A stretch of 39,860 bases of DNA, from NCBI GenBank assembly GCA_020060625.1, contig JAGUZU010000011.1:1-39860 (forward strand). Direction: 5' to 3'. Shown here piece after piece: positions 8,575 through 32,724 of the stretch (the first letter of the stretch is position 1; every line of letters begins with the position of its first letter). Made by a program: the position numbers and the translations under genes. A model generated the notes under the pieces. That model saw only the letters and a list, made by a program, of their open reading frames with translations, had not been told where the DNA came from and did not search any database. The stretch comes from Anaerolineales bacterium. Its GTDB lineage: Bacteria; Chloroflexota; Anaerolineae; Anaerolineales; Villigracilaceae.

Positions 8575-9029
8575 ACAATGTCCTCGCCATCCAGGACGTG
8601 ATTGCCCGCTTCGCCAATAGTTTTGACCAGAAAAACTGGTCAGCGTTGGAAGACTGTCTCGCCCCGCAAGTTTTCACCGATTACTTCGACCTACGCGACA
8701 CACCGCCTGAAATGCTCGCCGCCGCCGAATATATTCGCTTGCGAAGGGAAGCGCTCACCCCGCTGATCACGCATCACCTGCTGGGCGGGCTGGAGATTCA
8801 ATTCACCACTGCCGAAGGTGCTCTGTGCCGCACTTCCATGCTCATCTGGCGCGTACAAAACACTCCGAAGGATGCGACCCTTTGGAATGCAGCGGGCGAA
8901 TTTCACACCCACTGCCATTATACGTTCCACCTTGTAAAAGAAACAGAAACATGGAAAATCGGTGGCGTCATACAAAAGGTCTTGTGGAACAGCGGGACTC
9001 ACGAGATTCACAGCGGTGCCAAGTATTAA
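8571..9029 (+). CDS. SnoaL/NTF2-like domain protein
   Basis: A 152-residue protein. MNNVLAIQDVIARFANSFDQKNWSALEDCLAP is the typical first helix pair and strand of SnoaL-like proteins, with FTDYFDLR following, and a later curved sheet (CHYTFHLVKE, WKIGGVIQKVLWNSG). Members of this fold are ketosteroid-isomerase-like enzymes or ligand-binding proteins, and a specific function cannot be assigned. The ATG overlaps the stop of the CPBP gene upstream. Repeat copy B begins about 45 bp after its stop codon. Confidence 0.75.
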   Translation: MNNVLAIQDVIARFANSFDQKNWSALEDCLAPQVFTDYFDLRDTPPEMLAAAEYIRLRREALTPLITHHLLGGLEIQFTTAEGALCRTSMLIWRVQNTPKDATLWNAAGEFHTHCHYTFHLVKETETWKIGGVIQKVLWNSGTHEIHSGAKY

Positions 9030-9071
9030 GTTATGTATCCTATTTTGCTTCACAACCGCAATCGGATCTGT

Positions 9072-9135
9072 CCTGCGGGGTACATATCTGGTATACGGGT
9101 ATAAATTTCGCCCCGCCTGGAATATGCCGCGGGGC
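9072..9135 (+). repeat. Structured repeat, copy B, with two mutually exclusive hairpins
   Basis: Positions 9078-9107 repeat 2246-2275 exactly. GCGGGG (9075-9080) pairs with CCCCGC (9111-9116) around the conserved core. The same right arm (GCCCCGC, 9110-9116) can instead pair with GCGGGGC (9129-9135). Two exclusive foldings of one arm resemble an attenuator or switch, but there is no T run after it. It is in the same orientation as copy A, so the pair brackets about 6.8 kb as direct repeats. Confidence 0.65.
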
Positions 9136-9198
9136 TAAGGTTCTCCAAACCTGCATCTTGATCGAGAATCTTTTGTAAATCCAAGCGAATCACAACAT

Positions 9199-9468
9199 TT
9201 AGTAGTAGTGTAGGATTGTTTCTGTAAATTTAGAATAGAACGTAAGGGAATCATTGGCAAATTTCAGCGGATCGAATGTCCCAGGTTGCAGGGATCCGTC
9301 CAGCCAGCGCAAGCCGTGTCCCAGCGCGACGAATAGCAGGGTAGCCAGCACATAGAATGCCCATGCGGGACCTGGCAGGCGCTCGATCCACGCCATCAAC
9401 CGATCCACAAAACTGGTTGGATACGCCTTCGCCTCACTCGCGGACTTGGGGCTGGATTCTGTTTTCAT
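9199..9468 (-). CDS. Short membrane protein, possibly a truncated larger gene
   Basis: An 89-residue reading frame from ATG 9468 behind AGAGGAG. An acidic/serine-rich start is followed by FVDRLMAWIERLPGPAWAFY, one strong hydrophobic segment (VLATLLFVALGH, about residues 40-52) and a WLDGSLQPGTFDP loop. The C-terminus ends abruptly in ILHYY. The WIERLPGP and LDGS motifs give the impression of the N-terminal part of a larger multi-pass protein whose remainder has been lost. No homologue can be named with confidence. It follows the DinB gene on the same strand and could be the last cistron of nar operon 1. Confidence 0.5.
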   Translation of the reverse strand: MKTESSPKSASEAKAYPTSFVDRLMAWIERLPGPAWAFYVLATLLFVALGHGLRWLDGSLQPGTFDPLKFANDSLTFYSKFTETILHYY

Positions 9469-9574
9469 TGCTTCATCTCCTCTTTGGCGAACTTTCTTCG
9501 GGTGAATCCTTCATTTACTTTTCCAAAAACGCGGTGAGTTCTTGCAAATTCCTGAATCCGATACGCGCCTCCTT

Positions 9575-10291
9575 TCACTTTACCTGCTTGACCAACCGTT
9601 CGATCTGCGGCAGATGCGTCAACTCGTGCGACGCGAAATAACTGGCTTGTTGCTTGATGGATACAACCCCAAACTCTTCATGGCGTCCCGTGCGCCACCA
9701 ATCGGCGAGGGGGATGGTTTCGAGTTTGGCGATCACTTCGCGGCGCGTGGATAGATACGTCTCGAAAATCTCGCGCGTGGAGGGCGGACGTTCGGTCTCG
9801 TCCTTCGCCCACTTCCAGACTTGCTTCATCTCCAGCACGGGATTTTTCTCTTTGAGGAACAGGTCAATTCGGAAATCAAGCACGCCCTGCGCGTCGCGCA
9901 AATGCGAGACGACATTGCGGATCGCCCAGCCGCCGTCGGGGGCGGGACGCGTCAGCGCCTCTTCGCTCAGACCTTCGATCAGCGCGGCGACTTCGAGCGG
10001 AGTCTTGCGCAGGCGCTCCAACGCTTCGGCGGGGTCGAGCGCTTCGAGCCAGTAGACGGGCGGGAACCATTGGAACGTCCCGCCCCACGCGCCGCAGGTT
10101 GGACATTTTTCGGGGGCGTTGGTGAGAGTCTCTTTATCGTTGGGCAGGTTCATTTCCCACGCGGCGCGGCGGGAGATTGAGTCCGCTGTGGCGCGGGCGA
10201 TCTTGGCGATGTTGTATTGCCCTTCGTTTTCCAGCCGTAGGGCGAGGGAGAGAATCTGTACGAGGGTATCTGTCACATGTGAATTTTGCAT
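9575..10291 (-). CDS. DinB-family protein with an N-terminal CxxC motif
   Basis: A 238-residue protein. The C-terminal half is a DinB/YfiT-like four-helix bundle: GGWAIRNVVSHLRDAQ supplies the first His, and SYFASHELTHLPQIERLV carries the H-x3-H pair, the usual three-His metal site. An N-terminal extension includes EKCPTCGAWGG. Family members act as thiol-dependent transferases or remain uncharacterised. GAAAGGA precedes the ATG. It lies 47 bp after the hemerythrin gene and is probably co-transcribed with nar operon 1. After the TGA, 19 sense codons continue in frame (ending QELTAFLEK, TAA), which may be a worn gene end. Confidence 0.78.
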   Translation of the reverse strand: MQNSHVTDTLVQILSLALRLENEGQYNIAKIARATADSISRRAAWEMNLPNDKETLTNAPEKCPTCGAWGGTFQWFPPVYWLEALDPAEALERLRKTPLEVAALIEGLSEEALTRPAPDGGWAIRNVVSHLRDAQGVLDFRIDLFLKEKNPVLEMKQVWKWAKDETERPPSTREIFETYLSTRREVIAKLETIPLADWWRTGRHEEFGVVSIKQQASYFASHELTHLPQIERLVKQVK

Positions 10292-10338
10292 GTTGATTTC
10301 CTTTCACGTCTTCCCCGCAACTCGCTTAGCCGCAAGGA

Positions 10339-10845
10339 TTACGGCATATCCAGCCCAACCAAAGGCGTTCGCTGTTTTGCCCATTCCGCGCCGAGGGCAG
10401 AGAGTTCCTCTTCGCTCAAAAATTGACGCGCCATGCGGAAGAGGATTTGTTCCTCCTTTTGGAAATGTCCGCGTGTGACTTGGATCATCTGTTTGGCGAA
10501 GGCGCGGGCGGAGTCGAGGTCGCTCGCGGAGTGGATGTTGCCGAGCAGGTCGGTGATCTGGTCGTGTTCCATGCGCATGACCGCGAGAGGTCCGCTTTGC
10601 GTGCCGAAGTGGGGTTCGAGGGCGTTGAAGAGCAGTTCGTCTTCGAGACCCGCGTGGGATTCAAGCGCGAAGGCGAAGGCGGCGATGCGGTTTTGGAGGT
10701 TGGAAAGGGAATCGAGCGCGGGAAGAGATTGCTCGATGCTGCCGAGCATGAGATGAAATACGGCGTGCTCGCCGAGGAGGGCATCTGTGATTAACATATC
10801 TGTACCGCACACTTGCCCTGGCGTGCAAGTGCCAGGGAAATTCAT
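10339..10845 (-). CDS. Hemerythrin-domain protein in nar operon 1
   Basis: A hemerythrin-like four-helix bundle with the expected iron ligands in order: LLGEHAVFH, LESHAGLEDELLF, MRMEHDQI and TRGHFQKEEQILF. Proteins of this type bind a di-iron centre and handle oxygen, nitric oxide or iron-sulfur repair (the YtfE/RIC family). The ATG at 10845 overlaps the FmdE-like gene's TGA. However, the first 14 or so codons fall in a palindromic repeat (10810-10837), so the original start may be ATG at 10797, which begins MLITDALLGEH. Neither start has a clear ribosome-binding site; coupling to the upstream gene would favour 10845. A role in nitrogen-oxide stress is inferred from context. Confidence 0.82.
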   Translation of the reverse strand: MNFPGTCTPGQVCGTDMLITDALLGEHAVFHLMLGSIEQSLPALDSLSNLQNRIAAFAFALESHAGLEDELLFNALEPHFGTQSGPLAVMRMEHDQITDLLGNIHSASDLDSARAFAKQMIQVTRGHFQKEEQILFRMARQFLSEEELSALGAEWAKQRTPLVGLDMP

Positions 10846-10890
10846 TTTGCGTGCTTGTTTGTGGAAAACTCTCGCAACATGAATGTTGCG
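10810..10890. repeat. Two short palindromes spanning the fmdE-like/hemerythrin junction
   Basis: CCCTGGC (10816-10822) pairs with GCCAGGG (10831-10837), and the overlapping CACTTGC (10810-10816) pairs with GCAAGTG (10825-10831), so two foldings exclude each other. CGCAACAT (10873-10880) and ATGTTGCG (10883-10890) form an 8-bp stem. The latter palindrome recurs at 22260-22277. Both lie in coding sequence: the end of the FmdE-like gene and the start of the hemerythrin gene. Confidence 0.75.
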
Positions 10891-11459
10891 CTACTGTAAT
10901 ACGACTCCTCCGCGCAGGACTTGCACAACACCGTCCCTTCGCGTAGGACTTCGCGCTGGTTGATGATCTCTTCGCCGCAGATTTCGCAGTCGGCGCGTTT
11001 GCCAGGCTGACCGATGATCTGTTTGATGGGTGTCGTCAGTTCGATGTGCTGCCAGTCGAGCAGGAGGTCGTCGGGGATGTGCTGGTAGCCGATGAGTTGC
11101 GCCTCCCAGCGGTTGCGCGCGGACGGGGCGTAGTCCCATGCCAGTTCGCGGATGTCGGCGCGCGGGACGACGCGGATGGCTTGCTCGGTGAGCGAGTCAA
11201 TGAAGGAGGCGGCGGTCTTGCCGAAGTCTTCGATGCGGAGGGTGCGCCTGCCGACGTAGCAACCTGTCGCGGCGGAGATTCCGTCTACGAAACAGCCGTC
11301 CGTTTCGGCAATGGCAATGAGACGCTTTTCGGGCTGAGGTAAAGGCAGGTCGAGCAGGAGTCCAGCCAAAAGTCCGATGCGAGCGCCGAGCACCTGGCGC
11401 GGGCAGAGGCGGTGGTGGTGAGTCGCACTGAGGGCGAGGAGGTCAGTCAGGGAGATCAT
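10842..11459 (-). CDS. FmdE-like protein with C4 zinc motif, nar operon 1 copy
   Basis: A 205-residue protein from ATG 11459 (a GTG seven codons upstream is possible but falls in a repeat). HHHRLCPRQVLGARIGLLAG matches the HxxLCPxxxxGxR signature of FmdE (formylmethanofuran dehydrogenase subunit E-like), and GCFVDGISAATGCYVGRRTL its second conserved block. The C-terminus has a four-Cys zinc motif, CEICGEEI and VLCKSCAEES. The biochemical role of FmdE-like proteins is unsettled; they are found near molybdenum/tungsten enzymes. A paralogue ends nar operon 2 (28259-28873), which links the family to nitrate reductase here. The last 15 or so residues are encoded by a palindromic repeat. The symbol is left empty because the function differs from methanogen fmdE. 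Confidence 0.82.
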   Translation of the reverse strand: MISLTDLLALSATHHHRLCPRQVLGARIGLLAGLLLDLPLPQPEKRLIAIAETDGCFVDGISAATGCYVGRRTLRIEDFGKTAASFIDSLTEQAIRVVPRADIRELAWDYAPSARNRWEAQLIGYQHIPDDLLLDWQHIELTTPIKQIIGQPGKRADCEICGEEIINQREVLREGTVLCKSCAEESYYSSATFMLREFSTNKHAK

Positions 11460-11476
11460 CTTTTTGTACACGGATG

Positions 11477-11543
11477 ACACGGATTACACGGACGGACACG
11501 GACTTTCTTTAAAAAATTTCCGTGCGTTCCGTGTAATCCGTGT
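11477..11543. repeat. Inverted repeat between narI and the FmdE-like gene
   Basis: ACACGGATTACACGGA (11477-11492) is the exact reverse complement of 11528-11543, giving a 16-bp stem with a 35-base A/T-rich loop. Extra partial copies of the CACGGAT unit sit inside the left arm. It fills most of the 90-bp intercistronic gap and could stabilise or attenuate the nar operon 1 transcript. Similar ACGGATTACACGGA units are common dispersed repeats in bacteria. Confidence 0.75.
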
Positions 11544-11549
11544 ACCGAA

Positions 11550-12221
11550 TTAATGCCGCGCCTTGTTCCAAATCACGACCTGGTGTTCGCGCCAGAGATA
11601 CGAGAGCGGGTAGACCAGCAGATGCACAAGGCGCGTGAAGGGGAGCAGGAAGGCGATGGTGAAGCCGTTGAGGAAGTGGAACTTGACCCAGAACGGCAGG
11701 GCGGTGACGTAGGTGATGTCGGGTTGGAATTTGAGGAGCGAGACCAGCCACGGCACGGCGGTATGCAGGTACCAGTCCGAACCCCAGCGGTAGTAGTAGG
11801 CGACCCAGAAGCCGAGACCGACTTGCAGGAAAAGCACGACGAGCAGAATCCAGTCGAGTTCGGATGTGACGGCTTGGGAACGGGCGTCTGCCATGCGGCG
11901 GTAAAACAGTATGACAAGCCCGACCGTCGCCATCAGTGCGAGCGCAAGCCCCGTGATTTCAAGGACGTAGAGGCGGGTCTGGTTGGCGGTGAACAGTCCC
12001 CACAGCCTAGAGAAAAGCAGGGCGGTGAGATGTCCGAGCAGGATCGTGATCAGTCCGTAATGCCAGGGAACCGAGCCGAAGAACAGTTTGCGATTTTCGA
12101 GAAACTGCGACGACTGGCTGGAGACCGAATAGGGGTCGAAGAAGAATCGGTAGATGGTGACGGCAATCGAGATGGTGACTGCCGCATAGGGAAAGCCGAT
12201 GAACAGGGCGTTATCGAACAT
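11550..12221 (-). CDS. narI: Respiratory nitrate reductase gamma subunit (operon 1)
   Basis: A 223-residue, five-helix membrane cytochrome b. The four haem ligands of NarI align: His54 and His64 (WHYGLITILLGH) and His182 and His200 (FHFLNGFTIAFLLPFTRLVH), with the same 10- and 18-residue spacing as Escherichia coli His56/66 and His187/205. It oxidises quinol on the outer face and passes electrons through two b haems to NarH. AAGGAG precedes the ATG at 12221; longer upstream frames run through the repeat and are not used. It follows narJ and precedes the FmdE-like gene. The active-site residues are intact. Confidence 0.95.
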   Translation of the reverse strand: MFDNALFIGFPYAAVTISIAVTIYRFFFDPYSVSSQSSQFLENRKLFFGSVPWHYGLITILLGHLTALLFSRLWGLFTANQTRLYVLEITGLALALMATVGLVILFYRRMADARSQAVTSELDWILLVVLFLQVGLGFWVAYYYRWGSDWYLHTAVPWLVSLLKFQPDITYVTALPFWVKFHFLNGFTIAFLLPFTRLVHLLVYPLSYLWREHQVVIWNKARH

Positions 12222-12246
12222 GGGTTGCTCCTTGTCGAATGATTCT

Positions 12247-12324
12247 GTCATTGCGAGCGAAGCGAAGCAATCTCCTGTTGCGTGGGGATTGCTTCGTCGG
12301 GAAGTGCGCCCTCCTCGCAATGAC
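12247..12324. repeat. Long palindromic dispersed repeat forming the 3' end of narJ
   Basis: GTCATTGCGAG (12247-12257) and CTCGCAATGAC (12314-12324) are inverted ends, and GAAGCAATC / GATTGCTTC form an inner inverted pair. The unit matches 12935-13026 in opposite orientation (shared GTCATTGCGAGGAGGGCG and TTCCCGACGAAGCAATCCCC). The narJ stop codon at 12248-12250 is inside it. Confidence 0.85.
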
Positions 12325-12916
12325 GGGAAACTTGAAATTGATTTTGCAGAACGGAGCGCAGCGCCTCCAACACGCCGTGGAACTGGGTGCGCTTCTCGGA
12401 CTCTTCCTCCGCTTTGGGCGCGTCCGCGTTTTCGTCTTCGTCGAAGCCTTCGGATTTGGCGCGTCCCGTCATGCGGTCAAGAACTGGGAGCATGGCGTCG
12501 CGGGCAATTTCCTGCGCCTGCGTTTCGTCGCGCGTGGCGGCAAGGAAGTGCAGGATGACGGCGAGATGGTCCGCCAGTTCGTTCTCAGGGAAGACGAAGC
12601 CTTCGGCGGCATAGCGCTGTTTCAGCTCGACGAGAAAGACGCTGCGTTTGTAGGTCTCGCCGAAGAGGTGATAGCCGACGTAAGGATGGCATGCCGCGTC
12701 CAGATCAAATGTGCCTGTGTACACTTCTTCGAGTCGTCCAGGCGGCAGGGACTCGGCGTAGTCGTGAAATTCCTTCAACTGCGCGGCGGAAGCGGGGTCT
12801 TCGTCCAGCAAGAGTCCCTGCGCTTTGATGGCAGCTTGGAGCGTGCCGCCCGCGGGGTATTCCAACATGCGGGCAAAACATTGGTAGAGGCTTCGCATTT
12901 CGGTTTCGGTGTACAT
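12248..12916 (-). CDS. narJ: Nitrate reductase molybdenum-cofactor assembly chaperone (operon 1)
   Basis: A 222-residue NarJ/TorD-family chaperone. CFARMLEYPAGGTLQAA, ACHPYVGYHLFGETYKRS and ADHLAVILHFLAA are family landmarks. NarJ binds the NarG N-terminus and is needed for cofactor insertion; it is not part of the final enzyme. GGAGACTC precedes the ATG at 12916. An acidic, low-complexity linker (DEDENADAPKAEEESEKR) precedes the C-terminus. The last 25 or so residues (RHCEEGALPDEAIPTQQEIA...) are translated from the palindromic repeat, so the native C-terminus was probably shorter. Compare narJ of operon 2 at 183 residues. Repeats in inverted orientation flank the gene at both ends. Confidence 0.93.
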   Translation of the reverse strand: MYTETEMRSLYQCFARMLEYPAGGTLQAAIKAQGLLLDEDPASAAQLKEFHDYAESLPPGRLEEVYTGTFDLDAACHPYVGYHLFGETYKRSVFLVELKQRYAAEGFVFPENELADHLAVILHFLAATRDETQAQEIARDAMLPVLDRMTGRAKSEGFDEDENADAPKAEEESEKRTQFHGVLEALRSVLQNQFQVSRHCEEGALPDEAIPTQQEIASLRSQ

Positions 12917-12934
12917 TAATGAGTCTCCGTTTAT

Positions 12935-13026
12935 GTCATTGCGAGGAGGGCGATCTTCCCGACGAAGCAATCCCCGCGTCGTGTTGGAGATTGCTTCGTC
13001 GTCGCTCCGCTCCTCCTCGCAATGAC
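12935..13026. repeat. Long palindromic dispersed repeat between narH and narJ
   Basis: GTCATTGCGAGGAGG at 12935 and its inverted end CTCCTCGCAATGAC at 13013-13026 bound a 92-bp unit with internal GACGAAGCAATC / GATTGCTTCGTC arms. It is the opposite-orientation partner of the repeat at 12247-12324 and fills most of the 119-bp narH-narJ gap. Strong RNA structure here could lower narJ and narI expression or stabilise the upstream message. Confidence 0.85.
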
Positions 13027-13035
13027 ATACGTTTC

Positions 13036-14550
13036 CTAGAACTTCCTCTTCGCGATCTTGTTGCGGACGCCGAAGCCCGCTTCGCGTTTGTGGTCGAGCG
13101 GGACTTCCCATGCTTCGACGGCGACTTCACGCCCGAGCGGCGGGACGACGAAGCGTTCTTCGTAGGTCGGGAGCGCCGTGAGGCGGAAGATGGCTTCGAC
13201 TTCTTCGGCAGTGGTCTTGCCCTGCGAAAGAGCCGCGTCTACATCGGCTTGCTGGTAGTCCTTGACCTTTTGCGCGCGCTTGAAGATACGCACGGCGATC
13301 AGTTTGCGGTACACATCTTCCACTTCCTGCACATTGCCCGCCGAGAACATGCTCGCCATGTATTTGATGGGCATGCGCGCCTTCTCCAGCGAACTGAGCA
13401 TGGCGGGCAAGCCTTCCTTTTCCAAACCGTCCACGTCGTAGTTGCCGTCCTTGGTCTTGGCAAGGACAGGCAGCATCGGCGGGACGTAGTAGAGCATGGG
13501 CAGGGTGCGGAAGTCGGGGTGAAGCGGAAGCGCGATCTGCCATTTCTTGACGAACTTGTAGACGGGCGAATTCTGCGCGGAGGTGATCATCGCGTCGGAG
13601 ATTCCGTTCTTCTTCGCGGCAGCGATGACTTCGGGGTCGAACGGGTCCTGGATCATGTTCCGTTGCGCAGCGACCAGTTCATGGTCAGGGACTGAGGCGC
13701 ATTTTTCGATTTGATCCGCGTCGTAGAGCAAAACTCCCAGATAACGGATGCGTCCCACGCAGGAGTGGAAGCAGGCGGGGGGTTGTCCCGATTCGAGACG
13801 CGGGTAGCACAAAATACATTTTTCGGACTTGCCCGACGCCCAGTTGAAGTAGGTCTTTTTATACGGACAGCCCGAAATGCACATGCGCCAGGCGCGGCAT
13901 TTTTCCTGCGAGAGCAAAACGATTCCGTCTTCGCCGCGTTTGTAGATCGCGCCCGCGGGGCAGGCAGCGACACAGCCAGGGTTGAGACAGTGGTTGCAGA
14001 TGCGCGGCAGGTAGAAGAAGACGACGCGCTCCAGTTCGTTGAGTTGCTCGCGCTCGTCGTCGGTGAGTTCGTCGAGATTGACGTCGTTGCGGGCGTAGAG
14101 GGGCGAGCCGCCTAGGTCGTCGTCCCAGTTGGGTCCCGCTTCGATGGAGTCCATCGGCTTGCCCGTGATCATCGAGATGGCGCGGGCGGTGGGCTGGTCG
14201 TCGCCTTCGGGCGCGTTGAAGAGATTCTCGTAGTCGTACGTCCACGGCTCGTAGTAATCGTCAATGGTGGGCAGGTAGGGGTTGTAGAAGATGTTGCCCA
14301 GCCCGCCAAGTTTGCTGTGCAACTTCAACTTGAGTTCTTCGTTCTTCTTTTCCCAGCCGCCTTTGTATTTTTCCTGGTCTTCCCATTGCGTGGGATAACC
14401 CGTGCCAGGCTTGGTCTCGACGTTGTTCCACCACATGTACTCGGTGCCTTTGCGATCCGTCCAGATGTTTTTGCAGGCGATACTGCACGTGTGACAGCCG
14501 ATGCACTTGTCGAGATGGAAGACCATTGAAACGTGTGCGCGAATATCCAT
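13036..14550 (-). CDS. narH: Respiratory nitrate reductase beta subunit (operon 1)
   Basis: A 504-residue ferredoxin-like subunit. Cys16, 19, 22 and 26 (CIGCHTCSIACK) open cluster one; CNHCLNPGCVAACPAGAIYK, CRAWRMCISGCPYKK and CILCYPRLESGQPPACFHSC supply the remaining clusters. The Trp in CRAWRMC replaces a Cys, as in known NarH proteins that carry one 3Fe-4S cluster. It relays electrons from NarI haems to NarG on the cytoplasmic face. The protein aligns along its length with the operon 2 NarH at roughly two thirds identity by eye, so the copies are old paralogues. The C-terminal extension (AEEVEAIFRLTALPTYEERF) is normal for the family. A lipoprotein gene separates it from narG. Confidence 0.96.
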   Translation of the reverse strand: MDIRAHVSMVFHLDKCIGCHTCSIACKNIWTDRKGTEYMWWNNVETKPGTGYPTQWEDQEKYKGGWEKKNEELKLKLHSKLGGLGNIFYNPYLPTIDDYYEPWTYDYENLFNAPEGDDQPTARAISMITGKPMDSIEAGPNWDDDLGGSPLYARNDVNLDELTDDEREQLNELERVVFFYLPRICNHCLNPGCVAACPAGAIYKRGEDGIVLLSQEKCRAWRMCISGCPYKKTYFNWASGKSEKCILCYPRLESGQPPACFHSCVGRIRYLGVLLYDADQIEKCASVPDHELVAAQRNMIQDPFDPEVIAAAKKNGISDAMITSAQNSPVYKFVKKWQIALPLHPDFRTLPMLYYVPPMLPVLAKTKDGNYDVDGLEKEGLPAMLSSLEKARMPIKYMASMFSAGNVQEVEDVYRKLIAVRIFKRAQKVKDYQQADVDAALSQGKTTAEEVEAIFRLTALPTYEERFVVPPLGREVAVEAWEVPLDHKREAGFGVRNKIAKRKF

Positions 14551-14575
14551 AATTGACTCCTTGTAGTTTGCAGTT

Positions 14576-15619
14576 CTAAGGCGTAGAAGAATAGGTCGAA
14601 GTGAACGGTGCGTTCAGTCCGCAGACGCGGATGTCGTCGAAGTATACGAGGGTATCGGGGTCCTGCGGCGGAAACAGTTCAATGCCAATCGTTCCGGCTG
14701 GGAGCGGGTTGGAATCGATGTGATCCATGTTGAGAACACCGTCAATCCAAATCTGAAGGGAATCTTGGAAGAGACTGATCTCAATTAAGTGCCAGCCCGG
14801 GGTTTTCACCGCGTAACCGCGATCGACAGTTCGGTTCGAAGAAGGCAAAATCAGGCGATGGACTTCATTGCTGCTCGCGCCAACAATGATTTGATAGCGC
14901 ATGTCATCTGCAGCTTGCCCATCAAACTCAATACCCCAATTCTGGAGCCAGTTGAAGGATATACCACGACGCCCGATCACAAAGTAGCGCACCCGCCAGA
15001 CGGTTTCCTGAAATTGCCACCCGCCATCGAGATTAGCGCCAATATGGTCCGGTGAATTGTTAATCGCAACATAATTCCCGGGCTCCTCCGGATGCTCACC
15101 AACCGACCAACCATCCATCTGAGATTCGATCGAACCCCATTGATCCGTGCTGCCCCTCTGGAAATCCTCCACATAGAGCAGGGATTCGTTTTCCGTACAA
15201 GCCGCGGAGGACAGGAGTCCGAACGGGTCGCGTTTGAGTGCAAACACAACTTCATTCGGGCCGCGTTCGAGAGTGAGGGGCTGCTCACTGGGGAAATATC
15301 CCTGCATGGTGGCAGTGATGGAGCCTGTTGAAGTGCTTAAGTCTGTCCACGAGACTTGCCCCTCTTCATTTGTAGTGAATGGCTTGCCTCCCCCCACACT
15401 GGGGAAGAGCACATTCGCCCCCATGATTGGATTCCCCTCGGCATCCGTCACTTTGACCGTCAGATCGTACGGCAAAGGTGTGGCAGTCGGTGTGGGCAGT
15501 GGGGTAGGCGTCCACGCGGCGGCGGTCATGGTGGCAATCTGCTCAGGCGAGGGTCCACAAGCGCCTGCGAAGATCAATAAGATGATCGCGATAACGAAGG
15601 AAAGTTTTTTCTTATTCAT
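14576..15619 (-). CDS. Lipoprotein with CNA-B-like and LamG-like domains, inserted between narG and narH
   Basis: A 347-residue lipoprotein: signal peptide with lipobox FAGA-Cys21, a Thr/Pro linker (TPTPLPTPTATPLP), a carboxypeptidase-regulatory/CNA-B-like beta domain (LTVKVTDAEGNPIMGANVLF, VSWTDLS) at about 45-130, and a concanavalin/LamG-like domain (VEDFQRGSTDQWGSIES ... WHLIEISLFQDSLQIWIDG ... DDIRVCGL) at about 150-340. AGGAGC precedes the ATG at 15619. It starts 13 bp after the narG stop and ends 25 bp before narH, so it must be co-transcribed. Operon 2 has no such gene. The domains bind carbohydrate or protein in other contexts; a role in nitrate reduction is not known. It would be outside the membrane while NarGH is cytoplasmic. 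Confidence 0.8.
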   Translation of the reverse strand: MNKKKLSFVIAIILLIFAGACGPSPEQIATMTAAAWTPTPLPTPTATPLPYDLTVKVTDAEGNPIMGANVLFPSVGGGKPFTTNEEGQVSWTDLSTSTGSITATMQGYFPSEQPLTLERGPNEVVFALKRDPFGLLSSAACTENESLLYVEDFQRGSTDQWGSIESQMDGWSVGEHPEEPGNYVAINNSPDHIGANLDGGWQFQETVWRVRYFVIGRRGISFNWLQNWGIEFDGQAADDMRYQIIVGASSNEVHRLILPSSNRTVDRGYAVKTPGWHLIEISLFQDSLQIWIDGVLNMDHIDSNPLPAGTIGIELFPPQDPDTLVYFDDIRVCGLNAPFTSTYSSTP

Positions 15620-15632
15620 GATGAGCTCCTTT

Positions 15633-18600
15633 TTACCACTCCAACTTTTCCATCTTCCGTACCACGCAGTACGTATCGCGCGTGAAGACGCCGATGGGTC
15701 CCCAGTAATTGAAGCCGTAGGTGAACTGGGCATAGCCGCCCGCGAGTTCGACGGGATTGATGCGCGTGCGCGTCAGGCTATTGTGACCGCCCGCGCGTTT
15801 GCCCTTTCGTATCTGCGACTTGGGGATGAAGACCGTGCGCTCGACCGCGTGATAGTACAGGCACGTCCCAGGCTGGACGCGGGCGCTGACCGCCGCGCGG
15901 GTCACGACCACGCCGTTGTCGTTGTGGATTTCGACCCAGTCGTTGTCCACGATGCCGACGCTTTCGGCTTCCTTGTCGTTCAGCCAGACGGGATCCATGC
16001 CGCGCGAGAGCGTCAACATGCGATGGTTGTCCTTGTACGTCGAGTGGATGTTCCACTTGCCGTGCGGCGTGATGTAGTTCAGGATCAGGCTCTTGTCGTC
16101 CACCTGACTCTTCACGATGTCGCCGATCTTCTTCCAGTCGCCAGGCTTCGCCACGAGTTTCGGCTTGAACGTCGGTAGGTTTTCGCCGAAGTCCATGTAA
16201 TAGGGATGGTCAATGTAGAAGTGCTGGCGTCCCGTCAACGTGCGCCAGGGGACGCGGCGCTCCACGCTCATGCACCATGCGGAGTAGGCGCGTCCGTCGT
16301 TGACGATGCCTGACCAGCATGGACTGATGAGCGTGCGCCTCACTTGCCGCGTCAAATCGAAGAACGTCATGCGGACGCCGCGCACATCCTCAGCCAAATC
16401 TGCCAGCGGCATTCCGACTCTTTCTTCTTCGTGCTTGAACGCCGCGTACGAGACTTCGCCATTCGTTTCGGGCGCGAGATACAAGAGGACGTTCGCCGCG
16501 TCGAGCGCATCTTCCAACGACGGATATTTGTTCCCGCCCCATTCCACGCATCGCATGTGACGCGGATCGGGCGAGCCTCCGACGGGATTCTTCAGCAACT
16601 CGTCGTAGAACTCCGCGATGGGGATTTGCACGCCGTTGCCGCTGATGCCATCGGTGCGAAGGTTGGGTCCCAGCGAGATGAACTTGTTGTACAGGTTGGC
16701 GTAATCGCGCTCCACCACGCGGATGTGCGGCATGGTCTTGCCAGGGATGGCTTCGCACTCGCCCGCGCGCCAGTCCTTCACTTCGGCTTGCGAGAGTTCG
16801 TCGGGCGTGTCGTGCATGAGCGGACCCGTCACCACGTCCCTGAGCGGTTCGGGGAAGATATCGGGCGCGAGTTCGCTGACTTTCTTCGCAAAGGCTTTGA
16901 AGATTTCCCAGTCTGTCTTCGATTCCCACACGGGCGGCACAGCCTGTCCGAGCGGGTGAACGAAGGAATGAAGATCGGTCGAGTTCAGATCGTTCTTCTC
17001 GTACCAGAACGCGGCGGGCAGGACGATGTCGGAGTAGAGAGCCGACGAGTCCATGCGGAAGTTGAGATCAACCACCAAATCCATCTTGCCGCGCGGGGCG
17101 GGTTCGCGGAACTTGACGGTCTTGACTTTATCTCTTGCGTGTTCCTCGGCAATGATGTTGTCGTGCGTGCCGAGATAGTGACGCAGGAAGAACTCGTGTC
17201 CCTTCGCGCTGGATTGAATGGCGTTGCCGCGCCAGATGATCCACACGCGGGGCCAGTTCTCTTCCGCGTCGGGGTCGTCCACCGCGAATTCGAGTTTCCC
17301 ATCCTTGAGTTGCTTCGCCGTCCATTTGGAGACCTCATCCGCAGACTTCGCGCCCGCGGCTTCGGCTTGACCCACCAGGTCGAGCGAATTCGTTTTGAAC
17401 TGCGGGAAGTACGGCATCCAGCCCATGCGAACAGCCATCGCTTCCAAATCCATCGCGTGACCCTTCGCCCATTTCGTCTCAGGCGGGACGGGCGCGTAAT
17501 CGGTAAAGTCGCCTTCGTAGCGCCACTGGTCGCTATTGACGTAATGCCAGGTCGGGGATTGCTGTCGGCGCGGCGGCTTCTGCCAGTCGAGCGCGAATGC
17601 GAGAGAAGTCCACGGCGCGACGAGAGTCAGTTTCTCCTGACCGACGTAATGATTCATCCCGCCGCCGTTGACTCCGCAGCAGCCGCACAAAATCAGCGCG
17701 TAGATCGGGGCGCGATAGACGAGATTATTGTTGTACCAGTGATTGATACTCGCGCCGATGATGATCATGGACTTGCCGTTGGTCGCTTCGGCGTTAGACG
17801 CAAACTCGCGGGCGAGACGAATGATCGTGTCGCGCCCGATGCCCGTATAGGATTCCTGCCACGCGGGCGTGTACGCGCCGATCTCGTCGTAACTCTTCGG
17901 GTAATCGCCAGGCAGTCCGCGGCTCACGCCGAACTGCGCCACGACCAAATCAAAGACGGTCGTGACAAGTTTCTTCCCGCCCTCGGTCTCGATCCACTTC
18001 GCGGGGATGCCGCGCATGGCGGTGGTCTTTTCCGCGAACTCGTAGAACGCGACATCCACCGTCTCATCCTGCGAGCCGAGAAACGACAGGGTCGGCTCGA
18101 TGGGAGAATCATCCAACCCGTCTTCCATCTTGATATTCCACTTGCCCTTTTCCTGGCTCCAGCGGTCGCCCACCGCGCCCTTCGGCATGCGCGGCGCGTT
18201 CGCCTTCGTATCGTGAACAAGGAACTTCCATTCGCCGTTCTCGACATCTTTATATCGCTTCACGGTGTTGGCGCGGATGTAACGTCCCGCCTTGTAACCG
18301 TCGCCTTCCTTTTCCAACTCGATCAGGAACGGCATGTCGGTATTTTCTTTCAAGTAATTGATGAAGTACGGCACCTGCCGATCCGTGTAATATTCCTTGA
18401 TGATGACGTGATTGACCGCCATCCAGATCGCCGTATCCTGCCCCGCCTTGACGGGGATCCACCAATCGGAATATTTCGCCACCTGTGAGAAGTCTGGCGC
18501 AATGACGACGAACTTCGCGCCTTCGTGCCGCGCTTCCGAAATGAAATGCACATCAGGCGTGCGCGTCATGTTCAGGTTCGCGCCCATCGAGACGATGTAT

Positions 18601-19292
18601 TTGCTGTTGAACCAGTCCGCGCTTTCGCACACGTCGGTCTGGTCGCCCCAGATTTCGGGGAAGGCGTTCGGCAGGTCGGCGTACCAGTCGTAAAAACTCA
18701 TGTTCACGCCGCCGAACAATTGCAGGAAGCGCGACCCAGCCCCATACGAGAGATACGACATGGCGGGAATCGGCGAGAAGCCGAAGACGCGGTCGGGACC
18801 GTACTTCCGCGCAGTGTAGATCATCGAAGCGGAGACTATCTCCAACACTTCGTCCCAGTTCGTGCGGCGGAATCCGCCTTTGCCGCGCGCCTTCTGGATG
18901 CGCTTCCGCTTCGCCTCATCTTCCATGATGGAAGCGTACGCGTCCACGGGATGTAGGTGCTTCTGCTTGGCTTCGCGCCAGAAATCCAGCAACACGCCGC
19001 GCGCGTACGGATACTTGACGCGGATCGGGCTGTAGACGTACCACGACGCGGAAATGCCGCGCTGGCATCCGCGTGGCTCGTAAGGCGGCAGTCCATCCTC
19101 CAACAACGGATAATCCACCTGCTGCATTTCCCAGGTGATGATGCCGTCCTTGACGTAGACCTGCCACGAACATCCGCCCGTGCAATTGACTCCGTGCGTA
19201 CTGCGGACGATGTTATCGTGCTGCCAGCGGTTGCGATAAAACTCCTCCCACTGGCGGGCTTGCGGGTTGATCAAATCCTGAATCCAACTCAT
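15633..19292 (-). CDS. narG: Respiratory nitrate reductase alpha subunit (operon 1)
   Basis: A 1219-residue molybdopterin (bis-MGD) oxidoreductase. His33, Cys37, Cys41 and Cys76 ([14 protein letters not shown]) form the FS0 4Fe-4S site characteristic of NarG. Asp206 in FYDWYADLP is the predicted Mo ligand. The protein starts shortly before [12 protein letters not shown] and lacks any twin-arginine signal, so the active site faces the cytoplasm. Reaction: nitrate to nitrite. Flanking residues differ from operon 2 and E. coli ([21 protein letters not shown] against [21 protein letters not shown]), which may reflect altered substrate or direction. Upstream is a diheme cytochrome c; downstream, unusually, a lipoprotein gene precedes narH. 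Confidence 0.96.
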
Positions 19293-19323
19293 GTTAGATG
19301 CCTCCGTTTTGCCCTCACCCTAA

Positions 19324-19371
19324 CCCTCTCCCGCAGGGAGAGGGAACTCCCTTCCCCCTTCGGGGGAAGGG
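19324..19371. repeat. Double hairpin of a common dispersed repeat between cytochrome c and narG
   Basis: CCCTCTCCC / GGGAGAGGG (19324-19332, 19336-19344) and CCCTTCCCCC / GGGGGAAGGG (19349-19358, 19362-19371) form two adjacent perfect stems with 3-nt loops. They occupy the 101-bp gap before narG. This class of palindrome is widespread in bacteria; here it may set the cytochrome:NarG ratio. Confidence 0.8.
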
Positions 19372-19393
19372 CTGGGGATGAGAGAGTGTGTGT

Positions 19394-20257
19394 TTATTTC
19401 TTCGCCGCCAGCGTCCGTTCGATCATCGGCTTGCGCACACCCTTCGAACGTTTACCCCAATAGACCTGTGCCAGTCCGATCAACACCGCCGCGCCGACTA
19501 CGCTCAGTAAAGTGATCTGCAACAGCGCGCTTGGGTCGCGCTTCGTCACCGAAGCCTTGCTCAGGAACGCGTACAAATCGGCTTGCTCCTGCGCGGTCAA
19601 CGGTGTGTTCGCCCAGACCGCGCCCATCGTCTGCGTGGACGGCGCGCCCATGAACGAAGCGAACGCCGCATCCGATTGGACGAAGCCGCTCGTCGTCAGG
19701 TCAGGACCGAGCGAACCGCCACCCAACGCCGCGCCGAGTCCCGCAACGCTGTGACAGGACATGCACTGCGGTCCGCCGTTCTCGAAACGTTTATCGCCCA
19801 CGAAATACGCCTTGCCGCTCGTCGCATCCCCCGTGGGGAGTTCTGCTGTTGCGCCGCCCGTCGTCGCCCCGCCACCCATGTAAGCAATCAACGCCGCCAC
19901 CTCATCGGGGGTCAATCCCAAATTCGGCATGGGGACGTTGTTATATTGCGCCAGCATCGCCTGGGCGTCTGGGTCGCTCGCCAGCATCTGGTCGGGCGCG
20001 GTCAGCCAGTTCGTGAGCCACTCCTCCGTGCGGCGCTCGGTCACGCCCGCAAGGTCGGGTCCCACCAGATCGCCGCCGCCGATGGTGTGGCAGGCATTAC
20101 AGCCTTTTGCGGTGAACAACGCCTCCCCGTCTGTCTGATTCGGCGGCATGGCGGAGACAACGCGAAACGTGCCTGCCATGAACGCCAGCCCCGCCCCCAG
20201 AATCAAAAACGGCATAATGCGCCTGAAAATGGGGGAAGGCTTTTTGTCTTCGGTCAT
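19394..20257 (-). CDS. Membrane-anchored diheme cytochrome c of nar operon 1 (NarC-like)
   Basis: A 287-residue protein with an N-terminal hydrophobic anchor (FLILGAGLAFMAGTF, about 17-31), a haem c site CNACH (53-57), a NMPNLGL-type Met region (VPMPNLGLTPDEV), a Gly/Thr-rich linker, a second haem site CMSCH (165-169) and a C-terminal membrane helix (LLQITLLSVVGAAVLIGLAQV). In Thermus thermophilus a diheme cytochrome NarC is encoded just before narGHJI and links the enzyme to the chain; position and architecture agree. The C-terminal haem domain (RFENGGPQCMSCHSV) is closely similar to the monohaem cytochrome of operon 2. It lies 3 bp after the receiver-like gene. Confidence 0.9.
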   Translation of the reverse strand: MTEDKKPSPIFRRIMPFLILGAGLAFMAGTFRVVSAMPPNQTDGEALFTAKGCNACHTIGGGDLVGPDLAGVTERRTEEWLTNWLTAPDQMLASDPDAQAMLAQYNNVPMPNLGLTPDEVAALIAYMGGGATTGGATAELPTGDATSGKAYFVGDKRFENGGPQCMSCHSVAGLGAALGGGSLGPDLTTSGFVQSDAAFASFMGAPSTQTMGAVWANTPLTAQEQADLYAFLSKASVTKRDPSALLQITLLSVVGAAVLIGLAQVYWGKRSKGVRKPMIERTLAAKK

Positions 20258-20259
20258 TG

Positions 20260-20640
20260 CTATTTGCTCCTCTCGTTGGAAGGTTTACCCGCAAAGACAG
20301 CGGGCAGGTTTCGAATGGTTTCGAGCAGGTCGGCGCCGCTGGCAGGCAGCACATGGGTGGAGTGGACGCGGACGACGTTTTCCGTCAACCCCGCTCGGAT
20401 GATGGGCAGATTCGGATTCTTCTCCATGATGGAGGATGTGAGTGTCGCCGCCTCGCTCTGGGAATCCTCGTCCGCGATCAGGACTACATCGGGGTTTGCC
20501 TCAGTTATCTTCTGGCAGATGTCCTCCCCCCAGCCCCACGGTCCGACCAGTTCCACATCCGCTTCGGCACGCAAAATCTTCTCCATGCTCTCGCCGAAAA
20601 GATGTTCCGAACACACCAGCAGCACCCGTCGTTTTGGCAT
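20260..20640 (-). CDS. Degenerate receiver-domain protein, first gene of nar operon 1
   Basis: A 126-residue single-domain protein with a CheY-like pattern: RRVLLVCSEHLFGESMEKIL, VELVGPWGWGEDI, NPDVVLIADEDS, PIIRAGLTEN. In normal receivers the first strand ends in two acidic residues (VDDHxLF) that bind magnesium; here they are Cys-Ser. A phospho-acceptor-like Asp remains in VVLIAD, and the C-terminal conserved Lys is not evident. Phosphorylation is therefore doubtful. It has no output domain. Being the promoter-proximal cistron (3 bp before the cytochrome gene), it may sense or scaffold rather than relay phosphate, for instance by binding a NarL-type partner. The fold assignment is moderately secure, the role unknown. 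Confidence 0.7.
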   Translation of the reverse strand: MPKRRVLLVCSEHLFGESMEKILRAEADVELVGPWGWGEDICQKITEANPDVVLIADEDSQSEAATLTSSIMEKNPNLPIIRAGLTENVVRVHSTHVLPASGADLLETIRNLPAVFAGKPSNERSK

Positions 20641-20668
20641 GACCTGTTCTCATTAAAAGTAAAAACCA

Positions 20669-20697
20669 TCTCTAGGGTAACGGAGAAGACAGTGCAA
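20669..20697 (-). promoter_or_regulatory. Possible sigma-70-like promoter of nar operon 1
   Basis: On the minus strand TTGCAC (20697-20692) and TAGAGA (20674-20669) are 17 bp apart, about 30 bp before the receiver-like gene. The -10 match is weak. No FNR-type inverted repeat is evident between 20641 and 20839. Confidence 0.3.
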
Positions 20698-20801
20698 TGT
20701 CATCCTTCGCAAGCGAATCCATGGAATGAAAAAGGAATGATATTTTCCGCGCGGGAACTAATTCTTTTCCAGGCATTTTCCATGCCCGCCTTTCCCGCCG
20801 C

Positions 20802-20830
20802 TTGCGTTCAAGTCAGGTGTGCGGTACAAC
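20802..20830 (+). promoter_or_regulatory. Possible promoter of the beta-propeller lipoprotein gene
   Basis: TTGCGT (20802-20807) and TACAAC (20825-20830) have a 17-bp spacer and end nine bases before the ATG at 20840, so the leader would be very short. A small palindrome CTTG-CGTT-CAAG (20801-20812) overlaps the -35 box. Confidence 0.35.
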
Positions 20831-20839
20831 AGAAACGCG

Positions 20840-21952
20840 ATGAAAAAACTCCTGCCCCTCATCCTTCTCCTCCTTGTCGGCTGCGCATCCCCTCCCCCCG
20901 CGCCCGATTCCGGCATCACCCTCGCATGGACGATTCAAACCGACGGAGCCATCAACCAGACTCCGCTCATCGTCGGGGATGTGATACTCCTCGCCCCTTC
21001 TTCCGCGCCGCTTCGCGCCCTGGACCTTGAAACTGGTTCTGAACAATGGGCATTTTCCCCGCCCGAAGGAATCTGGGAACGCGCCTACGCCAGCGACGGG
21101 GAGCGCGTCTTCATCGGCGTGAAAAATAAGACCATCGCCGCGCTGAATATTTTGGACGGCAAGGTCGTCTGGCAAAAGGATTTGAGGATCAACATGCAAG
21201 TCCCGCCACTGGTCAGCGATGGAATCGTCTACGTCCCCACCGCCTTCGTCGGTCCTGAACTCGCACCCGACGTTCACGGTCGCGCCAAACTCTTCGCCCT
21301 CGACGCGCAAACGGGAAAAGAGATTTGGGCCTTTGAATCAGACAATTACATTTTGCAAACCCCCGCCATCCACGGCGACATGCTCCATCTGGGCGGCAAC
21401 TTCTACGACCCGCGTCCCATTGACGAAGGCGGTCACACGCGCATCTACGCCTTGAATCTTGCGGACGGTTCCCCCCTCTGGGATTACGAATCCGAAGACG
21501 GTTTCCCAAAACGACTCTACGCCACACAAGAGACCGTCGTCTTCGTCGCCTACCAGGACTTCATGAACGGCGTGGACGCGCAAACGGGCGAACTGCGCTG
21601 GCGCTTCGACACAGGCAACTGGACTCCCTCCTTCCTCGGCGCGGGTGAAGCGGTCTATTTCAGTTCCGCCAACACCCAGGTCTTCGCGGTGGACGCCAAC
21701 ACGGGCGAAACGCTCTGGCAATTCGACATCCCCGAAGGCACGTTCAACTACCTGCTCGACGTCCCCGTCCTGCGCGATGGCAAACTCTACTTCCTCACCC
21801 AGCAGGGAGACTTCTTCGCCCTTGACGCGGCGACAGGTGAATTGCTCTGGCAATCCAAAACCGAAGTCAGCGCCGCGCGCATGGGTCCCGCCATTGAAAA
21901 CGGCTGGGTGGTGATCGGCGATATCGAAGGGAAGGTGTATGGGTATAAGTAA
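20840..21952 (+). CDS. PQQ-type beta-propeller lipoprotein
   Basis: A 370-residue exported lipoprotein: signal peptide MKKLLPLILLLLVG with lipid-modified Cys15. The rest is a series of PQQ-like/BamB-like blades recognised by repeating A-L-D-x-x-T-G-x-x-x-W motifs: ALDLETGSEQWAF, ALNILDGKVVWQK, ALDAQTGKEIWAFES, ALNLADGSPLWDYE, GVDAQTGELRWRFD, AVDANTGETLWQFD, ALDAATGELLWQSK, and a GYK end strand that can close the ring. Such proteins are usually scaffolds rather than dehydrogenases, and the key PQQ-binding residues are not obvious. It diverges from nar operon 1 with a 200-bp shared promoter region, so co-regulation is possible. Confidence 0.85.
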   Translation: MKKLLPLILLLLVGCASPPPAPDSGITLAWTIQTDGAINQTPLIVGDVILLAPSSAPLRALDLETGSEQWAFSPPEGIWERAYASDGERVFIGVKNKTIAALNILDGKVVWQKDLRINMQVPPLVSDGIVYVPTAFVGPELAPDVHGRAKLFALDAQTGKEIWAFESDNYILQTPAIHGDMLHLGGNFYDPRPIDEGGHTRIYALNLADGSPLWDYESEDGFPKRLYATQETVVFVAYQDFMNGVDAQTGELRWRFDTGNWTPSFLGAGEAVYFSSANTQVFAVDANTGETLWQFDIPEGTFNYLLDVPVLRDGKLYFLTQQGDFFALDAATGELLWQSKTEVSAARMGPAIENGWVVIGDIEGKVYGYK

Positions 21953-24552: not shown

Positions 24553-25062
24553 TCACACGTGCGCGGCGTGTTTGGCTTTGTGCGCCGCGTCCTCCATCGC
24601 TTCGAACATCTCCTGCGCGGATTCGGGCGTCAGGCGCTGATCGAGAATGGGCAGGTAGACTTCCTCCTCCTTCGCAAAGTGGACTTTGACCAGCGCGTAC
24701 ACGCCGTACAACACACGCCGCAGGGATTTGACCTGCTCCGCGGTCAACGTCGCGCCGCCGATGTCCTTCTTCAGCGCAGCCAGTTCTTCGATGTAGCGAC
24801 CGACTTCCACGTGGTCGCGACTCATGGTCTTGGTGACGTCGGGACTGCCGAGCACGTTCTGCACCACGGGGTAAAGCGCGGCTTCTTCTGCTTCGGCGTG
24901 GGGCTTGAGGTGATGGGCAAGAAAGTCGTAGACTTCCTCCACGCCGCGCCGAATTTCGGCAACAGGTGCGTCGCCGATCCGTTCCGCCGCCTGGCGGATC
25001 TGGTCAACAGACGGGAACAATTCTTTGTGCTCATCGCGCAAGGGTTGGGTCAGGGTGGTCAT
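24553..25062 (-). CDS. Hemerythrin-domain protein in the Crp/Fnr cluster
   Basis: A 169-residue hemerythrin-like protein. Ligand motifs in order: LRDEHKELF, FLAHHLKPHAEAEEAAL, MSRDHVEV and VHFAKEEEVYLPIL. It is expected to hold a non-haem di-iron site that reacts with oxygen or nitric oxide. It is clearly diverged from the hemerythrin of nar operon 1. AAAAAGGAG precedes the ATG at 25062. An FNR/DNR-like box lies about 70 bp upstream, overlapping the end of the Crp/Fnr gene; with the TACAGT at 25097-25102 the box would be centred near -41.5, the classic activator position. Confidence 0.87.
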   Translation of the reverse strand: MTTLTQPLRDEHKELFPSVDQIRQAAERIGDAPVAEIRRGVEEVYDFLAHHLKPHAEAEEAALYPVVQNVLGSPDVTKTMSRDHVEVGRYIEELAALKKDIGGATLTAEQVKSLRRVLYGVYALVKVHFAKEEEVYLPILDQRLTPESAQEMFEAMEDAAHKAKHAAHV

Positions 25063-25124
25063 GGTTAATCTCCTTTTTGGTTTGGATTATGCCCCTACTG
25101 TACTCCTCCCCCTGATAAATTTAC

Positions 25125-25138
25125 ATGACGCGCATCAA
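25125..25138 (-). promoter_or_regulatory. FNR/DNR-like binding site overlapping the Crp/Fnr gene's stop codon
   Basis: On the minus strand TTGAT-GCGC-GTCAT (25138 to 25125) matches the TTGAT-N4-(A/G)TCAA consensus at 9 of 10 informative positions. A TACAGT -10-like box starts 30 bases from its centre, which gives a class II arrangement for the hemerythrin operon. Binding by the adjacent regulator is inference. Confidence 0.5.
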
Positions 25139-25890
25139 TTAACTGCACCCATTTCCGCCAACTTCTTCAAACGCTTCGCGTCCGTAATCGTCACCCACTT
25201 GCGCCCCGACTTGATCAGTTTGTCTTCGGCGAAGCGGCTCATCACGCGGCTGACCGTCTCGGTGGTCGCGCCCGTCATCGCCGCCAAGTCCTGCCGCGAA
25301 AAGGGAAGTTGTATCAAAACGTTTTCCCCGCGCGTCTCGCCCAATTTTCCCGCCAACCGCAACAGCGCCGCGGCAATGCGCTGTTCGGTGGTGTAGGCGC
25401 TTAATTGCTTGACCACTTCCTGCGATTCCGCCAGACGCTGGCTGACCACTTCCAGCGCACGCCGCGCAACTTCGGGATGTTCAGAAAGAATCGCATCGAA
25501 GTCGGCAGAGGAGATTTGCAGGATGCAGCAATCGGTTTGCGCGATGGCGGTTTCCGCGTATGCGCGCCCACCGAACATTGTCAGCAAGCCGAAGTATTCG
25601 CCGCCACGTAGAATATCCAGCAACACTTCGCGCCCCGAGGCGGCGTTGCGAATCAGTTTGACTTTTCCCATCGCGACGAGATATAAACGTTCCGCGTCGT
25701 CCCCTTCATGATAAATCCGCTCATCCGCACGCACATTGCGGTCATGGAAAAGGAGATTGATTTTGGAAATCGCTTCGGCGGGCAAATGTTTGAAGAACGG
25801 CAAACGCCCGACGATCTTCAAACGATAATCCAGTGAACAATCTGCGGGGTCAACCCAATCCAGCCGCACGGGAGATTTTGGACGCGCCAT
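25135..25890 (-). CDS. Crp/Fnr-family transcription regulator
   Basis: A 251-residue protein. The N-terminal cyclic-nucleotide-binding fold (LPFFKHLPAEAISKINLLF, IYHEGDDAERLYLVAMGKVKL, GEYFGLLTMFGGRAYAETA) is followed by the long dimer helix and a winged HTH (LPFSRQDLAAMTGATTETVSRVMSRF), which contains the E-T-V-S-R recognition pattern that reads TTGAT-type boxes in FNR and DNR. It lacks the four N-terminal cysteines of FNR, so it is not a 4Fe-4S sensor; a haem- or effector-type (DNR/NnrR-like) mode is possible. AAAGGA precedes the ATG at 25890. It likely regulates the hemerythrin/DUF2249/cupin genes downstream through the box at 25125-25138. Confidence 0.9.
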   Translation of the reverse strand: MARPKSPVRLDWVDPADCSLDYRLKIVGRLPFFKHLPAEAISKINLLFHDRNVRADERIYHEGDDAERLYLVAMGKVKLIRNAASGREVLLDILRGGEYFGLLTMFGGRAYAETAIAQTDCCILQISSADFDAILSEHPEVARRALEVVSQRLAESQEVVKQLSAYTTEQRIAAALLRLAGKLGETRGENVLIQLPFSRQDLAAMTGATTETVSRVMSRFAEDKLIKSGRKWVTITDAKRLKKLAEMGAVN

Positions 25891-25907
25891 GTTGTATCCT
25901 TTCCATT

Positions 25908-26282
25908 TCAAGAGCGGCGCTCAGCCTTCGCCCGCCCTTCCCAAAACTCGAGCCGATTCCCTTCGGGATCGCGCACATAGACCGCCTTTGCGCCCCACAC
26001 CTCTTTGACTGGCGACGAATTGATTCCCGCTTCCTTCAGCTCTGCCAGCGTCTGTCCCAAATCCGCGACCTGGAGGCTGATCGTGATGCCTTTTCCGTCG
26101 CCGCTTTTTATGGATGCGCGGGCTTCGTCCGCAACGCTCAATCGCGACGTTTCGTTGAGTTTGAATTCCACGAACCAATCATTGGACAAAAGCGCCAATA
26201 GCTTGATGCCATCCCTGTAAAACGCAACAGTTTCCTGCCATTGCTTGCAATATAAAATCGTATTGGTGGATTTAATCTTCAA
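25908..26282 (-). CDS. VOC-family (glyoxalase/bleomycin-resistance fold) protein
   Basis: A 124-residue protein beginning with TTG at 26282 behind GAGG. STNTILYCKQWQETVAFYRDG is the first beta-alpha-beta module, and VYVRDPEGNRLEFWEG the typical C-terminal DPxGNxxE motif with the Glu metal ligand. Such proteins are metal-dependent lyases, dioxygenases or drug-binding proteins. The substrate is unknown. It precedes the Crp/Fnr gene by 17 bp and may share its transcript; it diverges from the membrane-protein operon starting at 26396. Confidence 0.82.
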   Translation of the reverse strand: MKIKSTNTILYCKQWQETVAFYRDGIKLLALLSNDWFVEFKLNETSRLSVADEARASIKSGDGKGITISLQVADLGQTLAELKEAGINSSPVKEVWGAKAVYVRDPEGNRLEFWEGRAKAERRS

Positions 26283-26313
26283 CTGCGATTCCTCGATTCA
26301 AGAATGATGATAA

Positions 26314-26342
26314 TTGACAAACCATTACAAGGCATTAATACA
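26314..26342 (+). promoter_or_regulatory. Probable promoter of the three-gene membrane operon
   Basis: TTGACA (26314-26319), 17 bp, AATACA (26337-26342), about 54 bp before the ATG at 26396. A second A/T-rich -10-like box, TATAAT, lies nearer the gene in TTATAATCG. Confidence 0.4.
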
Positions 26343-26395
26343 CAGAAAGAAATAAAAGGTTGTATAAAAATTATAATCGTAAGTAGAATAAAGCC

Positions 26396-27478: not shown

Positions 27479-27480
27479 CC

Positions 27481-32665: not shown

Positions 32666-32690
32666 GATGTTTTATCCTTTTTCGCCACGA

Positions 32691-32717
32691 GTAGGTCACG
32701 CTTCAAGCGTGACCTAC
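32691..32717. repeat. 27-bp perfect palindrome between narG and narH (operon 2)
   Basis: GTAGGTCACGCTT (32691-32703) and AAGCGTGACCTAC (32705-32717) form a 13-bp perfect stem around one C. In the transcript this is a very stable hairpin in the 59-bp intercistronic gap; it lacks a T run, so it is more likely a processing or stability element than a terminator. Confidence 0.85.
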
Positions 32718-32724
32718 AACTCAA

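Follow-up and report, generated by a model that had tools for sequence, protein, structure and literature searches.

By common expectation, two subunit genes of one respiratory enzyme stay close together so that the stoichiometry of their products is preserved. In the narCGHJIKT operon of Thermus thermophilus, narGHJI share the operon with a gene for an exported cytochrome c that stands before narG, its product, the periplasmic NarC, being an extra subunit, and narG is followed by narH, with no lipoprotein gene between them mentioned in the accessible part of that account (PMC7694296). The locus described here likewise places a cytochrome c gene before narG, but differs in carrying a lipoprotein gene between narG and narH. 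Our literature search found no account of such an insertion, and the accessible part of PMC8756737 contains no occurrence of narG or narH. Based on comparisons of gene order, protein family and spacer sequence, we propose, with a probability of roughly 0.6, that an envelope-lipoprotein gene was relocated or acquired into the narG-narH boundary of one species, where it came under nar control without being a subunit or chaperone of NarGHI, as one case of a recurrent uptake of genes at this position.

The window, i.e. the whole stretch of DNA analysed, is an entire contig (C147, 39,860 bp) of a 3.67-Mb Anaerolineales genome in 155 contigs. Its nar operon 1 runs in the order cytochrome c, narG, lipoprotein, narH, narJ, narI (Table 1) and qualifies as narGHJI, with NarG and NarH above the NCBIfam cut-offs and with NarJ and NarI domains found. 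The original prediction, a lipoprotein gene with its own ribosome-binding site and gaps of 13 and 25 bp on either side, is borne out in its coordinates: the narG stop codon begins at 15633, narH starts at 14550, AAGGAG precedes the starts of both the lipoprotein gene and narH, and the plus strand over the same interval is interrupted by stops. The two subunit genes are 1,082 bp apart including one gene, and are hence not directly adjacent, whereas they are so in operon 2, where the spacer is empty as had been predicted. Its N-terminal segment, together with the c-haem domains, suggests that the cytochrome c is exported. An exported product had been considered unexpected in such an operon; it is not strange here, because operon 1 already starts with a cytochrome c gene, as in Thermus (PMC7694296).

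Table 1. Features of the two nar operons in the window
Feature	Position	Strand	Remarks
c-type cytochrome, first gene of operon 1	19394..20257	-	PF00034
narG, operon 1, 1219 aa	15633..19292	-	TIGR01580, 1488.7 bits, cut-off 1084.15
13-bp spacer narG/lipoprotein gene	15620..15632	-	with AAGGAG
Lipoprotein gene, 347 aa	14576..15619	-	between narG and narH, nar operon 1
25-bp spacer lipoprotein gene/narH	14551..14575	-	with AAGGAG
narH, operon 1, 504 aa	13036..14550	-	TIGR01660, 653.1 bits, cut-off 524.05
narJ, operon 1 (start approximate)	12248..12931	-	PF02613
narI, operon 1 (start approximate)	11550..12227	-	PF02665
narG-narH spacer of nar operon 2, 59 bp	32666..32724	-	geneless

Several further features surround the two operons. 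Hemerythrin-like and FmdE-like genes lie near both of them (10339-11480 and 24553-28873, the hemerythrin of operon 2 being recognized by eye), and a NarX/NarQ-like histidine kinase and a NarL-like regulator, named after their best NCBIfam matches below cut-off, are found near operon 2 (37146-39708). The spacer between narH and narJ folds at z -10.7. Frames upstream of narJ and narI (12931-13111 and 12228-12320) read CHCEEERSDDEAI and GDCFASLAMT, which we take to be translations of a widespread dispersed repeat.

As read from its sequence, the inserted gene appears to encode a bacterial lipoprotein, with a hydrophobic N-terminus and a lipobox cysteine, Cys21, followed by a T/P-rich linker, and all 15 relatives in the alignment have this cysteine. 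Residues 53-127 match CarboxypepD_reg (PF13620) at 35.2 bits, above the Pfam gathering cut-off of 32.3; 14 of 15 relatives match the domain at E ≤ 0.01. The C-terminal region, which may be concanavalin-like, reaches 18.8 bits against 3keto-disac_hyd (PF06439), below the cut-off of 26.8, while 13 of 15 family members match that domain at E ≤ 0.01, the best at 3.9e-9. The CNA-B/LamG label given originally was near in kind, but neither family is among the seven Pfam families listed at E ≤ 0.1. In a PDB profile search the best match was 4jqt, a putative glycosyl hydrolase, with a whole-sequence E of 0.00024 and single stretches at only 0.3 and 5.9, and a single-sequence AlphaFold2 model was unusable (mean pLDDT 36.2). 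A weak NCBIfam match, to a model for an anammox S-layer and at 27.5 bits against a cut-off of 1400, was set aside. Foreign composition was rejected as well: the GC3 of the gene, 0.609, is lower than in narG, narH and narI of operon 1 (0.78-0.80) and in narJ (0.69), yet ordinary for a genome in which other genes range from 0.42 to 0.78, and recent transfer is not indicated.

To place the insertion in context, 86 narG-narH junctions were compared (65 + 8 + 13, the last 13 lying outside the order and taken from coordinates without reading the sequence), with 400 genomes drawn for each of the order and phylum searches from larger groups. Left out were cases in which narG or narH is truncated where a contig stops, is split, or occurs by itself (G083, G135, two in G045, G044 C111, G244, G386, G398 C37, G651, G240 C230, and G436 C226 with no junction) or in which narH occurs without narG (G010, G530, G572). 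The two genes are adjacent in most junctions measured, in line with the expectation stated at the outset, and the present lipoprotein is absent from all 85 others. Occupied gaps, defined as at least 320 bp, are concentrated in narG1-type junctions, i.e. those with a NarG at least 72% identical (7 of 22, as compared to 1 of 64 others; L169, at 315 bp and read as sequence only, counts as empty). Counted by junction, this difference has a Fisher p of 0.0002, which becomes 0.0025 with three FKBP genomes counted once, values to be read in the light of related, hence not independent, genomes and of a window chosen for having an insert.

The other guests encode proteins unrelated to the lipoprotein: a DUF4440 protein and a 1077-aa NHL-repeat protein in G032, with a 26-codon narH stub between their genes, a protein of 587 aa in G052 that has a beta-helix match below threshold, a hemerythrin in G126, an FKBP-type protein in G703, G527 and G588 (by Pfam in the first two, alike by eye in the third), and a NIPSNAP-like protein in G540, the only occupied one of the 64 other junctions. 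Like the gene in the window, all are co-directional with the operon, so that 9 of 9 inserted genes point in the nar direction. The genomes of the three FKBP cases (L219, L220, L221) all belong to a single family that is not part of the order, and the protein is possibly a Nar folding helper. The stub in G032 (L064:8550-8627) is, over ~92 bp, 88% identical to the start of that genome's own narH and 90% to those of the present genome and of G017, which, on little sequence, hints at recombination with the narH of another lineage; no trace of the route of insertion is visible in the window. In G017, narH1 (L066:8527-10039) is split over two frames by a frameshift or a sequencing error.

Control gaps in the same operons, at the same threshold of 320 bp, are occupied in 0 of 60 cases between the cytochrome gene and narG, in 0 of 59 between narH and narJ, and in 4 of 58 between narJ and narI; because of the last figure, narG-narH is not the only permissive gap. 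The narJ-narI inserts in L168:9745-10299 and L176:9574-10134 are hemerythrin-like, as confirmed by Pfam for L168, and L172 and L174 have gaps equal in size to these. Taken as gene order, the position between narG and narH seems, in this NarG clade, to be one at which genes land repeatedly and not one that supplies a new part of the enzyme.

The lipoprotein itself belongs to a family that is usually found elsewhere. A match at E ≤ 0.001 is present in 30 of 101 relatives, this genome counted, although in roughly half of these it covers no more than the signal and linker. The genes of fuller relatives lie outside nar, mostly at two positions, and the copies there have in common with the protein encoded in the window the lipobox, the linker and the two-region layout, at about 35-53% full-length identity. 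Locus A, SAM-cycle-like, was seen in seven genomes (G054, G037, G029, G032, G046, G022, G368), and locus B, where Pfam assigns a regulator of BTAD type, a GAF histidine kinase and an amylase-like protein, likewise in seven (G032, G001, G017, G050, G046, G058, G005). The markers are not universal, as G037 lacks adoK within the stretch, the G368 gene is on the opposite side of mtnB, and the G005 locus lies where its contig ends. We presume the names mtnA, mtnB, adoK, ahcY and GNAT from the appearance of the sequences. Relatives more distant than these have other surroundings.

In the present genome, locus A (C21) has mtnB and mtnA, another lipoprotein, adoK and ahcY but not the gene found in narGH, and locus B (C129) has the amylase-like, kinase and GNAT genes but neither that gene nor the regulator. 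Because both loci exist without it and its sole full-length copy is the one in narGH, the gene was presumably relocated or acquired. In the tree, the narGH lipoprotein is on its own branch of 0.61, grouped with G054_A and G251 at weak support (81/75), a placement that fits relocation within the genome as well as acquisition from another lineage. The comparison with relatives proposed along with the original prediction returned no second instance of the arrangement, which counts against a conserved role, and the hinted partnership with NarG finds no counterpart in the 85 other junctions or in the loci where the relatives reside. In G356 (L215:2014-10452) and G260 (L218:2205-10733), distant relatives (27-31% identity) directly precede a gene for a GAF histidine kinase, whose domain was checked in G356, together with a response-regulator-like gene and an operon for a molybdoenzyme, DmsABC-like by eye; as two genomes of one divergent branch, they represent a lead rather than support for a functional link.

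Where narG1-type spacers of at least 40 bp are unoccupied, all 14 fold strongly (L065-L067, L069, L071, L072, L142-L148 and L151; z -2.8 to -10.2 relative to simple shuffles), while L149, at 22 bp, is too short to score. Their hairpins fall into two unrelated palindrome families, CCGCAA..TTGCGG and CCCTCACCC..GGGTGAGGG. Hairpins as the cause of insertion were rejected, since strong folding is also found in many other nar spacers. The flanks of the lipoprotein gene are too short to accommodate either attC or terminal repeats of any length, and a single gene makes up the insert; those of the G052 insert are faintly attC-like by eye. No promoter-like site in the nar direction was detected in 10200-20700, where the 4 sites found (3.2 expected) are all on the other strand. 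In the same region 18 terminator-like matches were found as compared to 10.9 expected, none of them in the two spacers flanking the lipoprotein gene, and three on the nar strand inside its reading frame, which could weaken read-through into narH.

Could the junction be an error of assembly, with the lipoprotein gene wrongly joined into narGH? The fragmentation of the assembly and the lack of the arrangement in any relative would fit such a chimaera, an alternative also raised with the original prediction. However, contig QZIJ01000116.1 of Anaerolineaceae bacterium SURF_68 (15,702 bp) is 100% identical to 8579-21367 of the window, over 12,789 bp that span narG, the lipoprotein gene and narH, and as this contig is broken at other places than the window, a chimaera is very improbable. 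The contig represents a second assembly, which may derive from the same sample or reads, and is not proof of a second population; both joins, moreover, lie between whole genes with ribosome-binding sites. With the junction taken as genuine, the protein might work in nitrate respiration, e.g. by keeping the cytochrome c of the operon at the surface, or as the external component of a signalling pair. The tight fit and the ribosome-binding site are compatible with such an accessory, as are the regulatory and molybdoenzyme neighbors in G356 and G260 and the FKBP and hemerythrin guests of other nar junctions, which could plausibly serve the enzyme. Yet G032, G005, G017 and G050, of the same genus and in possession of a narG1-type operon as well as the lipoprotein family, keep the lipoprotein elsewhere, many lipoprotein-bearing relatives have no narG at the threshold used, and none of the 85 other junctions measured shares the insert, making a function in nitrate respiration unlikely.

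A neutral passenger, i.e. an insertion that drifted in, is tolerated without any nar-dependent role and may decay, is likewise doubtful, though somewhat less so. Its restriction to one species in the survey, the different guests of neighboring lineages and the broken narH stub in G032, as expected of an untidy insertion, speak for it; the frame of 347 codons is nonetheless whole and retains the invariant residues of the family, the ribosome-binding sites are good, and every guest follows the nar orientation. More tentatively still than our preferred reading, but as a fuller version of recurrence, the gap may be a true expression dock, in which exchangeable genes are repeatedly placed and made whenever nitrate respiration is on, with the NarG:NarH balance independent of adjacency. 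We consider this possible, at odds clearly below even.

We favor the reading of a relocated or acquired guest, which would operate as follows. A gene of the Anaerolineales envelope-lipoprotein family would have moved within the genome, or arrived from outside, into the narG-narH spacer of operon 1, at the position where related operons carry a hairpin-bearing spacer. Probably co-transcribed with its neighbors, it would be translated off the nar mRNA via its own ribosome-binding site, and the product would be exported and, after lipidation at Cys21, stand on the outer side of the membrane. There the Ig-like stalk and the concanavalin-like domain would most likely bind a glycan or another polymer. 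The lipoprotein would be produced while nitrate respiration is on, as neither a subunit nor a chaperone of NarGHI. It is one case among several, as unrelated genes oriented with nar have entered the same spacer repeatedly within this NarG clade. The weakly supported placement of the gene in the tree, its ordinary GC3, the three terminator-like matches inside its reading frame, the permissiveness of narJ-narI, the relatedness of the sampled genomes and the choice of the window for its insert count against this proposal.

In conclusion, we regard the lipoprotein as most likely a guest specific to this lineage, an envelope protein that is produced under nar control and is not a NarGHI subunit. 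The surprise of its presence is modest, and the interesting part is the recurrence of guests at narG-narH: among the junctions measured, unrelated genes entered this boundary on at least five occasions in one NarG clade. An odd neighbor in an operon need not be a functional partner, and these operons are natural examples on which to test whether NarGH assembly depends on adjacent genes.
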